Shown: one piece after another, positions 13,889 through 33,262 of the stretch | Numbering within the stretch: the stretch's first letter is position 1 | How the letters are laid out: every line of letters begins with the position of its first letter | Virus record (IMG/VR): IMGVR_UViG_3300021335_000035 | Location: 1 to 39,092 of that record | Length of the DNA: 39,092 nucleotides | Source: a virus | Reading direction: 5' to 3' (one strand) | Position numbers and translations under genes: made by a program | Notes under the pieces: model-generated | Databases searched by the model: none | Seen by the model: only the letters and a program-made list of their open reading frames with translations | Told to the model about the DNA's origin: nothing

Positions 13889-15712
13889 ATGCAAACAGCA
13901 GAGATTGTGGAGTTCCCAATGGTGAAGGACTCTAAGTACTTGGGTATATCTATTGATTTAGATAGAGACAAAACATTATCAGAACAAGCACAAAAATTGT
14001 TAAAAGATTATTATTGTATTAAAGGTGAAGATAGTCCACAACAAGCATTTGCAAGAGCAGCGGTTGCATATTCCTATGAAGATATGAAACTCGCACAAAG
14101 AATTTATGATTACGTTTCTAAGGGGTGGTTCATGTTTGCATCACCTGTATTATCTAATGCACCAATGCCTGGACAGAAAGTCAAGGCATTACCTATTTCT
14201 TGTTTTTTAACTTATGTACCAGATTCGTTGGAAGGTCTTATTGACCACACAGCGGAACTACGTTGGCTTTCTGTGAAGGGTGGTGGAGTTGGTGGACACT
14301 GGAGCGATATTCGTGCCGTGTCTGACAAAGCACCAGGCCCTATGCCGTTTTTGCATACCGTTGATGCAGACATGACAGCATACAGACAGGGTAAGACAAG
14401 GAAAGGTTCTTATGCAGCTTACATGGATGTTTCTCATCCAGACATCATAGAATTCTTAAACATGAGAGTTCCTACTGGTGATGTAAACCGCAAGAACCTT
14501 AACTTGCACCATGCTATTAACATTACTGATTCGTTTATGCGAGCAGTAGAAAGAAATGAGTGGTGGGATTTAAAAGACCCTAATGATGATACAGTTCGTG
14601 AGACAATGAGAGCAAGGAAGTTGTGGGAACAAATTCTAGAAGTGAGATATCGTACAGGTGAACCATACTTGAACTTTATCGACACTGCTAATCGTGCGAT
14701 GCCACAAACTCAAAAAGACAAGGGATTGAGGATTCACGGTTCAAACTTATGTAACGAAATTCACTTACCAACATCTGAAGACAGAACAGCAGTGTGTTGT
14801 CTTTCTTCAGTCAATGTTGAATTGTTTGACGATTGGAAACATTCAGAAATGATTGCTGACCTTGTTCGATTCTTGGACAATGTGTTACAATTCTTTATTG
14901 ACAATGCGCCAGATGATATCAGTCGTGCAAGATACTCTGCTGAACAAGAGCGTTCACTTGGTCTTGGTGCGATGGGATGGCATTCATTCTTGAATAAGAA
15001 AAGAATTCCATTTGATGGTGGTCAAGCTGACGTATGGAATGCAGTTGTCTTTCAACACATTCAGAAACAAGCAGTTGAAGAAAGTCTTAGATTGGGCGTG
15101 ATAAAGGGTGAGGCACCAGATATGGAAGGTACTGGTAGACGTAATGCACATCTACTTGCAATCGCTCCAAATGCAAACAGTTCTATTATCTGTGGTACTT
15201 CACCATCAATCGAACCGATTAAAGCAAATGCATATACACACAGAACCAGAGCAGGGTCACACCTTGTGAAAAACAAATACCTTGCAGAAGAACTGGAAAA
15301 GGTAGGTAAGAATACTGATAAGGTATGGCAAGATATTATCACCAATGGTGGTTCTGTACAACATCTAAAATTCTTGAAGGATGATGTTAAGGAAGTTTTC
15401 AAAACTGCAATCGAAGTTGACCAAAATGTATTGGTGAGACAGGGTGGAGATAGACAAAGATTCCTATGTCAAGGTCAATCATTAAATCTGTTCTTTCCTG
15501 CTGGTGCAACAAAGAAATATTTACATCAAGTGCATATGAACGCATGGAAAGAGGGTTGTAAAGGTCTTTATTATTTGAGAACTGAAACAGGACAACGTGC
15601 AGAGAATGTATCAGAGAAAGTAGAAAGGAATGCATTGAAAGACTATGAGTCACAAGCTGTTTGTGATATCACTGCACAATCGCAAGATGAGTGTGTAGCG
15701 TGTCAAGGGTAG
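13889..15712 (+). CDS. nrdA: Ribonucleotide reductase class Ia, large subunit
   Basis: Protein of 607 aa reducing NDPs to dNDPs with the NrdB partner. The radical-site motif SNLCNEI gives N286, C288 and E290; the redox cysteine pair is C105 (ISCFLTYVPD) and C303 (AVCCLSSVN). The tyrosine dyad of the radical path is in KGLYYLRTE, and the C-terminal shuttle pair is CVAC (C602, C605). It lacks the N-terminal ATP-cone of long host enzymes, so dATP feedback inhibition at that site should be absent, as in many phage enzymes. AGGAG precedes the ATG. The Fe-S carrier gene overlaps its 3' end. Confidence 0.93.
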   Translation: MQTAEIVEFPMVKDSKYLGISIDLDRDKTLSEQAQKLLKDYYCIKGEDSPQQAFARAAVAYSYEDMKLAQRIYDYVSKGWFMFASPVLSNAPMPGQKVKALPISCFLTYVPDSLEGLIDHTAELRWLSVKGGGVGGHWSDIRAVSDKAPGPMPFLHTVDADMTAYRQGKTRKGSYAAYMDVSHPDIIEFLNMRVPTGDVNRKNLNLHHAINITDSFMRAVERNEWWDLKDPNDDTVRETMRARKLWEQILEVRYRTGEPYLNFIDTANRAMPQTQKDKGLRIHGSNLCNEIHLPTSEDRTAVCCLSSVNVELFDDWKHSEMIADLVRFLDNVLQFFIDNAPDDISRARYSAEQERSLGLGAMGWHSFLNKKRIPFDGGQADVWNAVVFQHIQKQAVEESLRLGVIKGEAPDMEGTGRRNAHLLAIAPNANSSIICGTSPSIEPIKANAYTHRTRAGSHLVKNKYLAEELEKVGKNTDKVWQDIITNGGSVQHLKFLKDDVKEVFKTAIEVDQNVLVRQGGDRQRFLCQGQSLNLFFPAGATKKYLHQVHMNAWKEGCKGLYYLRTETGQRAENVSEKVERNALKDYESQAVCDITAQSQDECVACQG

Positions 15713-15990
15713 TTCAGTTAACAGATAGTGCAAGAGAATATTTAAAACAAGTAGGTAAACCAAATGTTTACTTATCAGTCAAGGGTGGGGGATGTTCTGG
15801 TTTCCAATATGTTTGGGAAGTAACAGAGAAAGAACCTACCGTTGAAAATTTAGTGATTGACCCAGTAGCAGAAATGTTTGTATTGGGTTGCACTGTAGAT
15901 TATGTTACAGAGTTGGGTGGTTCATTTTTAAAAGTGAGTAATCCAAATGCAACTGCATCTTGTGGATGTGGTGAAAGTTTTGCAGTATAG
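15700..15990 (+). CDS. A-type Fe-S carrier (HesB/IscA-like)
   Basis: Small A-type scaffold with the three ligand cysteines: C32 in GGGCSG and C88, C90 in SCGCGESF. Family members bind iron or 2Fe-2S clusters and hand them to apoproteins. The GTG at 15700 is chosen because VSRVVQLTDSA aligns with the start of IscA; GTG 15691 is the alternative. It overlaps the end of nrdA and is followed 11 bases later by a Rieske-oxygenase-like gene and then by the di-iron NrdB gene, so supplying metal to one of these is plausible. Similar genes are known in marine phages. Confidence 0.85.
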   Translation: MSRVVQLTDSAREYLKQVGKPNVYLSVKGGGCSGFQYVWEVTEKEPTVENLVIDPVAEMFVLGCTVDYVTELGGSFLKVSNPNATASCGCGESFAV

Positions 15991-16001
15991 GAGATGGTAT
16001 T

Positions 16002-17066
16002 ATGCCACCAAGAAATCATAAGAATTGGATTAAGACGCCTAACGTAGAATATATCTCTAGTGAATGTTATAATAACAAAGACATTTTTGAGCAAGAACAA
16101 GAACACATTTTCAGTAAGGTATGGATACCTGTTTGTCACAAGAGTGAACTTCCAGATGTTGGATGTTACAGGACATCACAGATTGCCTTTCAGAATGTTA
16201 TAGTATGGAATAAAGGTGATACAATAAAAGCATATTTAAATCACGGCCCACAACAACCTTCTGGTAAGTTATGGAACGATGAGACTTTTGGTAAAGAGTT
16301 GCATTGTGAAGTTAAACATGGTGGAATGGTGTGGACAACACTAAACCCTAATCCTACACAGAGTGTGGATGAGTGGACTGCTGGTGCGTTTGATTGTATT
16401 GCAGATGCAATTGATACTGAAGAGATGGAAGTCTTTCATTATCACAAAGCAATCATAAACACAAATTATAAATTGTGGCATGATACTAACAGTGAATTCT
16501 ATCATGACTTCATGCATTACTTTAACAGAGTAAGTGGATTCAATGATGAGTATTTTGCCCGTAAGAATATACCATTTGATAATGGTCATGTGAATGTAAG
16601 TTCATTCACAGTTAACTACGAGGAGTATGAAGGTTTTGATGACAGGGGTGAACTATCATTCCCAAACCTACCACCAAATCAGTGGTACATGGTTGACCTG
16701 TTTCCTGGCTTCAACTTCAACCTAAGAGGAAGTGCATATCGTTCAGATAGTGTAACACCAATTGGGCCAAACCAAGTTCTGATTGAGTTTAGAGGATATG
16801 GACTCAAGAAGGATACGAAAGAAGAAAGACTTACTCGCATTAAACATCACAATTCTATATGGGGGCCATTTGGTCGTAACCTACATGAAGATTTGATTGG
16901 TGTTGCTGGACAAGGTACAACAATGCGTGAGGGTACAGAGAAAAGAAACATTCTACATGGAAGACATGAGAATGGAACTATCCACGATGAAGTGGGTATG
17001 AGACACTATTATGGTGCATGGGGTGATATGTTGGGGGTAAACCCAGAAAGACCGTTAGCAGCGTAA
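16002..17066 (+). CDS. Rieske-type non-haem iron oxygenase alpha-like protein with degenerate cluster site
   Basis: Protein of 354 aa, shorter than typical ring-hydroxylating alpha subunits (~400-460 aa). The N-terminus fits the family (EQEHIFSKVWIPVCHKSELP). Where C-x-H then C-x2-H are expected, it has AYLNHGPQQPSG and ELHCEVKHGG (C102, H106): the first pair is not recognisable and the second is C-x3-H. The catalytic domain keeps NYKLWHDTNSEFYHDFMH (H168, H172 as iron ligands) and a late acidic candidate in LHEDLIGVAGQGT (E296/D297). It lies between an Fe-S carrier and NrdB. Either it uses iron without a Rieske cluster or it has a new role; the substrate cannot be read. Confidence 0.75.
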   Translation: MPPRNHKNWIKTPNVEYISSECYNNKDIFEQEQEHIFSKVWIPVCHKSELPDVGCYRTSQIAFQNVIVWNKGDTIKAYLNHGPQQPSGKLWNDETFGKELHCEVKHGGMVWTTLNPNPTQSVDEWTAGAFDCIADAIDTEEMEVFHYHKAIINTNYKLWHDTNSEFYHDFMHYFNRVSGFNDEYFARKNIPFDNGHVNVSSFTVNYEEYEGFDDRGELSFPNLPPNQWYMVDLFPGFNFNLRGSAYRSDSVTPIGPNQVLIEFRGYGLKKDTKEERLTRIKHHNSIWGPFGRNLHEDLIGVAGQGTTMREGTEKRNILHGRHENGTIHDEVGMRHYYGAWGDMLGVNPERPLAA

Positions 17067-31624: not shown

Positions 31625-32035
31625 ATGTACGAATATAAATGTAAACTAGTCAAGGTCGTTGATGGTGACACAATTGATGTTGACATTGATTTGGGTTTTG
31701 GTGTATGGATGCAAAATCAAAGAATCAGAATGTATGGAATTGATACGCCTGAATCTAGAACATCTGACCCAATTGAAAAAGTGTATGGTAAAGCTGCATC
31801 TGCATTTCTAACTAAATGGACAAATGCTGGTGACCTTACTTTGAAAACATTCAAAGATGGTAAGGGTAAGTATGGACGTATTCTAGGAGAGATTTGGTTT
31901 GGTGGTGAACACAATATCAATCAACTTTTAGTAGACAATCATCATGCAGTACGCTACTATGGTCAATCTAAAGATGAGATTGCAGAAGAACATATTGCAA
32001 ATCGTTCTATTTTGTCCTTGACAAATGAAGAGTAA
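31625..32035 (+). CDS. SNase-like thermonuclease
   Basis: Protein of 136 aa with staphylococcal-nuclease active-site residues: R35, D40 and E43 in RIRMYGIDTPESR and an Arg in GKYGRILGEIW (R85). No signal peptide, so it acts in the cytoplasm, probably degrading host nucleic acid or recycling nucleotides. The start follows the previous stop by one base. The -35 box of the tmRNA promoter lies in its last codons. Confidence 0.82.
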   Translation: MYEYKCKLVKVVDGDTIDVDIDLGFGVWMQNQRIRMYGIDTPESRTSDPIEKVYGKAASAFLTKWTNAGDLTLKTFKDGKGKYGRILGEIWFGGEHNINQLLVDNHHAVRYYGQSKDEIAEEHIANRSILSLTNEE

Positions 32036-32046
32036 TTTGGTATAAA
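32018..32046 (+). promoter_or_regulatory. Overlapping early and late promoter of the tmRNA
   Basis: TTGACA (32018-32023), 17-bp spacer, TATAAA (32041-32046); the same bases form the late octamer TATAAATA (32041-32048). The tmRNA could therefore be made both early and late. Confidence 0.65.
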
Positions 32047-32049
32047 TAT

Positions 32050-32338
32050 AATACAATTTGATGATACAAATCAAATACTGGACAGGACATGGGGGCAGTA
32101 CCCATCGCCTCCACCATAATCTCACTTCTAGATGAGATATTGAATCACTGCTTGGGAGTGGGATTATGATGGGGGCGAACTAGGTTCGACTGACAGGGAT
32201 AGAGGCGAGTAGAATTGTCGGATGACTGCGTAATAGGTCAAAACTCGTAAATGCAAACGATAACAATGCATATGTAGATTACGCTATCGCAGCTTAATCG
32301 TACTGAGTTTCGGTGGTGTACTTGGAAACAGAAACACC
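32050..32338 (+). ncRNA. ssrA: Permuted (two-piece) tmRNA
   Basis: Acceptor piece: T-arm ATGGG-GGCAGTA-CCCAT, then acceptor strand CGCCTCC, discriminator A and encoded CCA (32114-32116). A spacer hairpin (32117-32170) follows. Coding piece: GGGGGCG (32171-32177) pairs with CGCCTCC across the permutation, then the D-like segment with GGTTCGAC, and a tag ORF starting GCA at 32253 that reads ANDNNAYVDYAIAA and stops at 32295-32297. A last hairpin GTGGTGT/ACACCAC closes the region. The order and tag start match alphaproteobacterial two-piece tmRNA. It may rescue ribosomes during infection and tag products for host proteases. Exact mature ends are not known. Confidence 0.88.
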
Positions 32339-32360
32339 ACCACTTAATTTTGGAGATAGT

Positions 32361-32855
32361 ATGTACAAGGTGACAGGATATTTTAAAGACCACAAAGTAG
32401 TTAGACACTTTGTTGACCTGTACGATGCTATTGATTTTAAGGATAGTGTGGATGCACATTATCCAGTGAAACTGACGATGAAAAAGGTAATTGATATGCG
32501 AGAATTTATATATGATGCATGGAATGGTGTTATGAATATGGATAAAAATCCATTGAGACATATTCCAGATACATCAACCAGACACATGGTATTGCAAGTA
32601 TTAGCATGGATGTGGTGTATAGTGTTTTCTTTTTACGTTGGTAGTTTCTGGGTATTTGGTATTAGTGCAGTCGCACACATTTTTTTACTTGGTGCAATCG
32701 TAATCACAGTCGCAACCTTTGAAACCGCAAAACGTAGACCTACATTCTTTCAAGACTTCCCAACATCTACACCAAGTCGTAGTAGAATGTATATGTGGAT
32801 GAATGGACAAAAGATTAAATTAGACCCACAGGATAAGGGTGGCGAACATGAATAA
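32361..32855 (+). CDS. Membrane protein, 164 aa
   Basis: ATG 32361 after TTGGAGATAGT; an earlier in-frame start at 32313 would lie in the tmRNA. The N-terminal ~85 residues are soluble (YKVTGYFKDHKVVRHFVDLY), then two membrane helices (VLQVLAWMWCIVFSFYVGSF; GISAVAHIFLLGAIVITVAT) and a basic cytoplasmic end. Found next to gp33 in this window; function unknown. Confidence 0.6.
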   Translation: MYKVTGYFKDHKVVRHFVDLYDAIDFKDSVDAHYPVKLTMKKVIDMREFIYDAWNGVMNMDKNPLRHIPDTSTRHMVLQVLAWMWCIVFSFYVGSFWVFGISAVAHIFLLGAIVITVATFETAKRRPTFFQDFPTSTPSRSRMYMWMNGQKIKLDPQDKGGEHE

Positions 32856-33034: not shown

Positions 33035-33262
33035 ATGAATATGGAAAAGTTGATGACCCCTAAGAAATTCTCTCTTGCAGTAGAACAGGTAGTACAGGAA
33101 TGTGGTTGTTCTCACATGGAAGCAGTACTAGATTATTGTGAGAAGAATAATATTGAACCAGATACAGTAAAACCCCTTATCACAAAATCTCTCAAAGAGA
33201 AGATTGAGTGTAATGCAAGGGATTTACATTATTTACCCAAAGTCGCACAGTTACCAATATAA
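33035..33262 (+). CDS. 33: Late transcription coactivator, gp33-like
   Basis: Protein of 75 aa: MNMEKLMTPKKFSLAVEQVV, a helix with DYCEKNNIEPDTVKPLI and the ending YLPKVAQLPI, matching gp33 of T4-like marine phages. gp33 links RNA polymerase and the sliding clamp to activate late promoters, which fits the TATAAATA elements in the window. It overlaps gp59 by one base, as expected from the conserved 33-59-32 neighbourhood. Confidence 0.8.
   Translation: MNMEKLMTPKKFSLAVEQVVQECGCSHMEAVLDYCEKNNIEPDTVKPLITKSLKEKIECNARDLHYLPKVAQLPI

Follow-up and report, generated by a model that had tools for sequence, protein, structure and literature searches.

A permuted tmRNA gene in a T4-like marine virus, with overlapping early- and late-type promoter sequences and a spacer that is apparently a swappable slot

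The DNA analyzed here (the window) is a 39-kb virus fragment (39,092 nucleotides; IMG/VR record IMGVR_UViG_3300021335_000035) with a G+C content of 38% and a T4-like gene set, as identified with Pfam and PHROG: PhoH, endolysin, exonuclease, SNase, gp33, gp59, ThyX, and gp32. Covariance models and ARAGORN place a complete circularly permuted tmRNA gene on the plus strand at positions 32053 to 32344. By synteny, its conserved neighbors on the same strand are an SNase-type nuclease gene upstream (31625 to 32035; PF00565, 3.8e-14) and, downstream, a membrane protein gene (32361 to 32855) without a Pfam or PHROG match. These are followed by the gene for gp33, the late-transcription coactivator needed for T4-type late promoters (33035 to 33262, plus strand; PF16805, 7.9e-21; phrog_254, 4.7e-22). 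Two ORFs located between RNR genes resemble, by eye only, a ring-hydroxylating oxygenase (16002 to 17066) and a HesB-like iron-sulphur assembly protein (15691 to 15990).

Two Rfam models matched the gene over the whole model and far above their gathering scores in cmscan: RF04321 at 32053 to 32297 (121.9 bits, E value of 1.7e-23; gathering score, 47) and RF01849 at 32014 to 32344 (121 bits, E value of 1.1e-32; gathering score, 50). ARAGORN also called a permuted tmRNA, with the tag ANDNNAYVDYAIAA, and the RNA folded better than 200 shuffles did (z-score, −5.2). The covariance search proposed in a preliminary description, made from the window alone, therefore confirms its identification of a phage-borne, permuted, alphaproteobacterial-type tmRNA. 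The span given there, 32050 to 32338, had the right location, but the 3′ end lies at about 32344.

The acceptor (3′ TLD) piece precedes the coding piece and occupies 32053 to 32116, its start being that of the RF04321 match and its 5′ end being placed from the model and the late promoter box. It contains the T-arm ATGGG-GGCAGTA-CCCAT (32089 to 32105), the acceptor 3′ strand CGCCTCC (32106 to 32112), a discriminator A (32113), and an encoded CCA (32114 to 32116). An intervening spacer, which is removed in two-piece tmRNAs, follows at 32117 to 32170. The coding piece (5′ TLD and mRNA-like part; 32171 to 32344, the end of the RF01849 match) opens with the acceptor 5′ strand GGGGGCG (32171 to 32177), fully complementary to CGCCTCC in a 7-bp stem that includes G3-U70. 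The tag ORF (32253 to 32297, GCA...TAA) has an alanine resume codon, a hydrophobic end with two alanines, and a stop codon; the hairpin GCU-AUCGC-AGC lies within its end. A further hairpin, GGTGGTGT...ACACCACC, is predicted by folding at the 3′ end of the coding piece (32312 to 32341). All of these elements are on the plus strand, and direct reading found the order of the pieces, the T-arm, the acceptor pairing, and the tag as first described.

Comparison with relatives indicates that the gene is maintained. A pattern scan for tmRNA retrieved at least 120 viral stretches, and neighbor searches retrieved dozens of syntenic tmRNA loci. The T-arm stem is paired in all 84 distinct viral sequences (shuffled, 38 and 48%), and two of its positions each show four pair types; the few acceptor-stem mismatches in the same 84-sequence comparison probably stem from shifted parsing of where the coding piece starts. 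In the tag-end hairpin, the third positions of the Ala(−4) and Ala(−2) codons covary, 64 of 80 being Watson-Crick pairs versus 27.6 expected, a level reached by none of 5,000 shuffles. In sister phages, the 194 nt from 32163 to 32356 are 97 to 99% identical. One tmRNA (locus L170, 5421 to 5782) has an odd tag, AIVNNAYVDYAIAA, and a broken tag-end hairpin and may be a decaying copy or a sequence error. Sister phages have about 217 additional nt between the tmRNA and the membrane protein gene (in L123, between 5540 and 5758; window positions 32356 to 32362).

Upstream of the gene, a sigma70-type −35 hexamer, TTGACA (32018 to 32023, plus strand), is separated by 17 nt from TATAAA, and this −10 element is overlapped by a T4-type late promoter box, TATAAATA (32041 to 32048, plus strand), just before the tmRNA start. 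By reading, the sigma70 promoter has 11 of 12 matches to TTGACA-17-TATAAT; the automatic promoter scan demands a final T in the −10 element and hence did not list it. When upstream regions were clustered, TATAAATA was found 64 to 73 nt upstream of CCTCCACCA in 55 of 73 viral tmRNA clusters. TTGACA, with at least five of six matches, accompanies the late box in 43 of these 55, the spacing being exactly 17 nt in 41 of the 43, versus 11 of 105 for other TATAAATA sites in the same loci (Fisher's exact test, P = 6e-18). The window itself has four TATAAATA sites, and only that of the tmRNA has a −35 element. In the lineage of the window, TTGACA lies within the end of the nuclease ORF, and it is also kept in other gene neighborhoods. 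The overlapping early and late promoters noted previously thus hold up well. The Melnitz tmRNA likewise has TTGACA-17-TATAAATA, and the arrangement is not universal, since it is absent before the tmRNAs of Mosig and HTVC008M. Among the fetched loci, the 11 other late boxes have TTGACA at a spacing of exactly 17 nt, and composite early/late promoters may therefore serve further phage genes. The authors of the Melnitz paper describe an early promoter and conclude that the tmRNA is used early (PMC9004378). Because the early promoter overlaps the late box, the sequence argues for expression in both phases of infection, as opposed to this early-only idea.

The unusual part of the gene is the spacer, which the preliminary description missed. 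In the window, it forms a hairpin that prolongs the acceptor stem, and its stem covaries: 98.2% of cells are paired, versus 73.4% when shuffled and 36 to 57% when slid, and 38 cells are double changed, versus 11 in shuffles. The 26-nt loop, TAGATGAGATATTGAATCACTGCTTG (32129 to 32154), is near-invariant while the stem varies freely, although some of this invariance reflects the exact pattern by which copies were retrieved. A loop scan found 73 viral stretches, and nearly all viral copies sit in tmRNA spacers: among 28 distinct contexts in fetched loci, 26 lie between the CCA and the GGGG strand, one runs into an edge, and in the last, L669 (11289 to 11338), the same hairpin stands where no tmRNA was found, followed by another strongly structured stretch. 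It is quite possible, at somewhat less than an even chance, that the hairpin is a mere processing aid bringing the two cuts together and that the loop by itself does nothing. The closing stem TAA..CAC/GTG..TTATGAT is common to all longer spacers, as such an aid would lead one to expect, and some close relatives have a spacer of only 16 nt without the loop, so the spacer cargo is dispensable. Conservation of the loop against a freely changing stem speaks for a role beyond processing, as do the persistence of the hairpin in L669 and the outcome of a covariance search with the spacer hairpin, which gave matches of >70 bits or almost nothing.

Sister phage L123 is 92 to 95% identical to the window over about 7.5 kb, but the alignment stops at window position 32120 and restarts at 32163, i.e., exactly at the spacer, and the coding piece is 98.5% identical. 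In place of the hairpin, the spacer of the L123 lineage, 120 nt long, contains an ORF (MFDRLTEFFIKLF...) and a Shine-Dalgarno site. In the syntenic set, the hairpin was found at 35 loci (6 distinct), the L123-type ORF at 14 loci (6 distinct), and the 16-nt spacer at 15 loci, alongside other types. Among 32 distinct spacers of at least 90 nt, a set not selected for ORFs, 12 have at least 55% of their length taken up by an ORF with a Shine-Dalgarno site before it (shuffles: mean, 1.8; maximum, 5). The spacer ORFs in relatives show coding conservation, with dN/dS values of ~0.05 to 0.2 for spacer-borne DUF2061-like copies and near kin, 0.15 to 0.50 for the MLDRL ORF, 0.10 to 0.35 for the MKNPLVKK ORF, and 0.12 to 0.24 for the MDEVILW ORF. 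Apart from a subthreshold Pfam match to DUF2061 (1.8e-4), most spacer ORFs had no Pfam or PHROG identity, and the MKNPLVKK and DUF2061-like proteins had no homologues among isolate phages. The DUF2061-like ORF occurs both in tmRNA spacers and free-standing in other phages. Of 50 MKNPLVKK copies inspected, 40 are flanked by clear CCA and GGGG strands, and another 4 have only a GGGG strand after them; in 3 of the remaining 6 (L592, L594, and L596), the ORF pair persists with no tmRNA halves seen around it, and there it sits behind promoter-like sequence. In Melnitz (MZ577097, 45984 to 46436; L391, 2974 to 3426), the tmRNA spacer contains a 54-amino-acid ORF with a Shine-Dalgarno site; this ORF is unannotated in GenBank and extends across the expected cut site.

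These observations make it likely that the tmRNA spacer of T4-like marine phages is an exchangeable cassette, released at tmRNA processing, that holds either a small protein gene or, as in the window, a conserved hairpin RNA. The protein genes would belong to at least five families, among them one for a membrane protein that occurs almost exclusively within tmRNA genes and one for the DUF2061-like protein. An ORF that crosses the cut site would give a non-stop mRNA, its expression being coupled to trans-translation, although this coupling is speculative. The spacer as a swappable slot for a conserved RNA hairpin or a small protein gene is apparently new: the paper on the tmRNA database describes a single tRNA gene within an intervening sequence and makes no mention of ORFs (PMC11915505), and no earlier report of ORFs in permuted tmRNA spacers was found in the literature searched, although one may exist elsewhere. 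Since the window has the hairpin allele and lacks a nested ORF, the share of this novelty that rests on the window is limited.

The tmRNA locus, between a PDDEXK nuclease and gp33, is shared with Melnitz and Mosig and recurs in dozens of contigs and in HTVC008M, which has an unannotated permuted tmRNA (NC_020484, about 145120 to 145461; L404, 47121 to 47462) with the tag ANFNEYALAA. In a tree of the tRNA-like parts, 71 phage tmRNAs fall on one side of a branch (support, 96/93) and 79 alphaproteobacterial, 21 SAR11, and 20 betaproteobacterial sequences on the other; the tree rests on ~159 columns, its bootstrap is not fully settled, its phages were drawn by pattern and synteny, and its root is unfixed. 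A tree of these parts was also run on a smaller sequence set. A clade of window/Melnitz-like sequences with SAR11 was rejected (p-AU, 0.036), and the whole phage clade as sister of SAR11 was not (P = 0.45). The Melnitz tmRNA was published as being of SAR11 affinity (PMC9004378), and this the present data do not support. Nor do they support a recent acquisition of the window's tmRNA from SAR11, since it does not group with SAR11 tmRNAs apart from the remaining phages. Among isolates, Melnitz is the nearest for most proteins (gp32, 68%; RNR, 79%), and its tmRNA is 81% identical to that of the window. Since Melnitz infects OM43 (PMC9004378), the SAR11 host assumed at first is not established.

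It is highly probable that the window encodes a functional phage two-piece tmRNA, expressed early and late and rescuing ribosomes with host SmpB, with the spacer as a separate module. Gene anatomy, promoter conservation, covariation, the coding conservation of spacer ORFs in relatives, and the allelic swap, all read from sequence comparison, argue for this explanation; from them we infer early and late transcription, cutting, alanylation, use of host SmpB, ribosome rescue, and release of a spacer RNA. As soon as infection begins, host sigma70 polymerase would use TTGACA-17-TATAAA to make the precursor. After takeover by gp33, gp55, and gp45, the overlapping TATAAATA would keep the tmRNA on late, a use suggested by the promoter together with the gp33 gene in the window. 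The acceptor and spacer stems could fold into one long hairpin, and tRNA-processing enzymes would release two paired RNAs by cutting after CCA32116 and before G32171, as happens in known permuted tmRNAs. Alanylation would proceed via G3-U70, and the tmRNA would work with EF-Tu and host SmpB, on which it would depend, as no SmpB was found among the proteins scanned. Ribosomes stalled on broken host and phage mRNAs would thus be rescued, with ANDNNAYVDYAIAA added for proteolysis. The phage would most likely benefit from a rescue capacity that lasts even as the host's own gene is shut off or destroyed. As a module in its own right, the released spacer would be a conserved hairpin in the window, possibly acting as a small RNA, and a small protein gene in near-identical phages.

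An alternative places the benefit in the fate of tagged proteins, the longer and different tag redirecting them to, or sparing them from, host ClpXP and adaptors. The window tag has 14 amino acids; all 34 sampled SAR11 tags have 9 (ANDELALAA, ANNKLALAA, ANESYALAA, etc.), and nearly all sampled betaproteobacterial tags are ANDERFALAA-like with 10, so the earlier suggestion of a tag different from the host's holds against the SAR11 sample. Phage tags are also diverse, with -LAA, -IAA, -QAA, and -NAA ends. However, most end in the canonical LAA, and the -IAA and -QAA ends occur in bacteria too, which together leave this alternative unlikely. Because of those bacterial occurrences, the -AIAA ending is no phage peculiarity, and an -IAA or -QAA end was rejected as a phage-specific protease signal. 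Nor does the ANDN start point to a SAR11 source: none of the sampled SAR11 tags begins with ANDN, and the 71 phage tmRNAs form one clade.

The RNA might instead act as a decoy that competes for SmpB or AlaRS with the tmRNA of the host. This role has been proposed for the TLD-only RNA of mycobacteriophage DS6A, and an RNA of that type is reported to inhibit tmRNA (cited in PMC4131195 and PMC11915505). Retention of a full tag ORF, stop codon, and mRNA-like domain, with a hairpin under selection within the tag ORF, makes a decoy in the window very improbable. Still less probable, and already disfavored, is the idea that recombination with a host ssrA gene left the phage with a passenger or a copy in decay. 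In general, phages commonly integrate at ssrA (PMC9004378), but compensatory changes, a single viral clade, a conserved locus, and a conserved promoter are at odds with decay, and the published SAR11 origin needs Melnitz-like sequences beside SAR11, the placement rejected above.

Comparison with hundreds of relatives shows, at the level of sequence, what appears to be one old viral tmRNA lineage with a conserved early-plus-late promoter. If so, phage ribosome-rescue RNA would change from a published curiosity into a widespread and old viral lineage expressed in both infection phases, contrary to published ideas of early-only use and a SAR11 origin. Split tmRNA genes would hold further genes in a spacer that the mature RNA lacks, a gene within a gene, and such nested genes escape automatic annotation, as in Melnitz. 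A conserved hairpin RNA of small size and a number of small proteins would become directly testable in cultured phages.

The tmRNA gene of the window is itself not a new kind, because two-piece tmRNAs at the same locus have been published for Methylophilales phage Melnitz (MZ577097) and Pelagibacter phage Mosig (PMC9004378). Theirs are likewise permuted and of the alphaproteobacterial type, in the order PDDEXK nuclease, tmRNA, gp33, gp59, ThyX, and gp32. Melnitz differs in its tag, in having its spacer ORF instead of the hairpin, and in a glutamine riboswitch (52.8 bits; MZ577097; L724, 699 to 747), for which no match was found near the tmRNA of the window; this riboswitch lies past the tmRNA 3′ end and before gp33 and thus more likely controls downstream genes than the tmRNA. 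Caulobacter-type permuted tmRNAs of alphaproteobacteria share the inverted order, the CCA-ending acceptor piece, the T-loop GGCAGTA, and an ANDN...AA tag, whereas that of the window belongs to its own viral clade. Spacers reach 239 nt in phages, compared with 6 to 12 nt in SAR11 and mostly <80 nt in other alphaproteobacteria. The tmRNAs of mycobacteriophages Bxz1 and Wildcat and Bacillus phage G are one-piece RNAs with genes of the standard form; they are phage carried like that of the window, but the latter is permuted. All three are listed among phages with ssrA (PMC4131195). A tRNA-Ala gene lies within the intervening sequence of one permuted tmRNA (PMC11915505). These phage spacers likewise place a second gene inside a tmRNA gene but differ in holding several unrelated small ORF families or a conserved hairpin, in a permuted gene. 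LAGLIDADG ORFs, which occur in intron-type tmRNAs, are similarly nested and differ from the phage spacers in the same respects. The spacer cassette and the composite promoter are what sets this lineage apart within the known kind.
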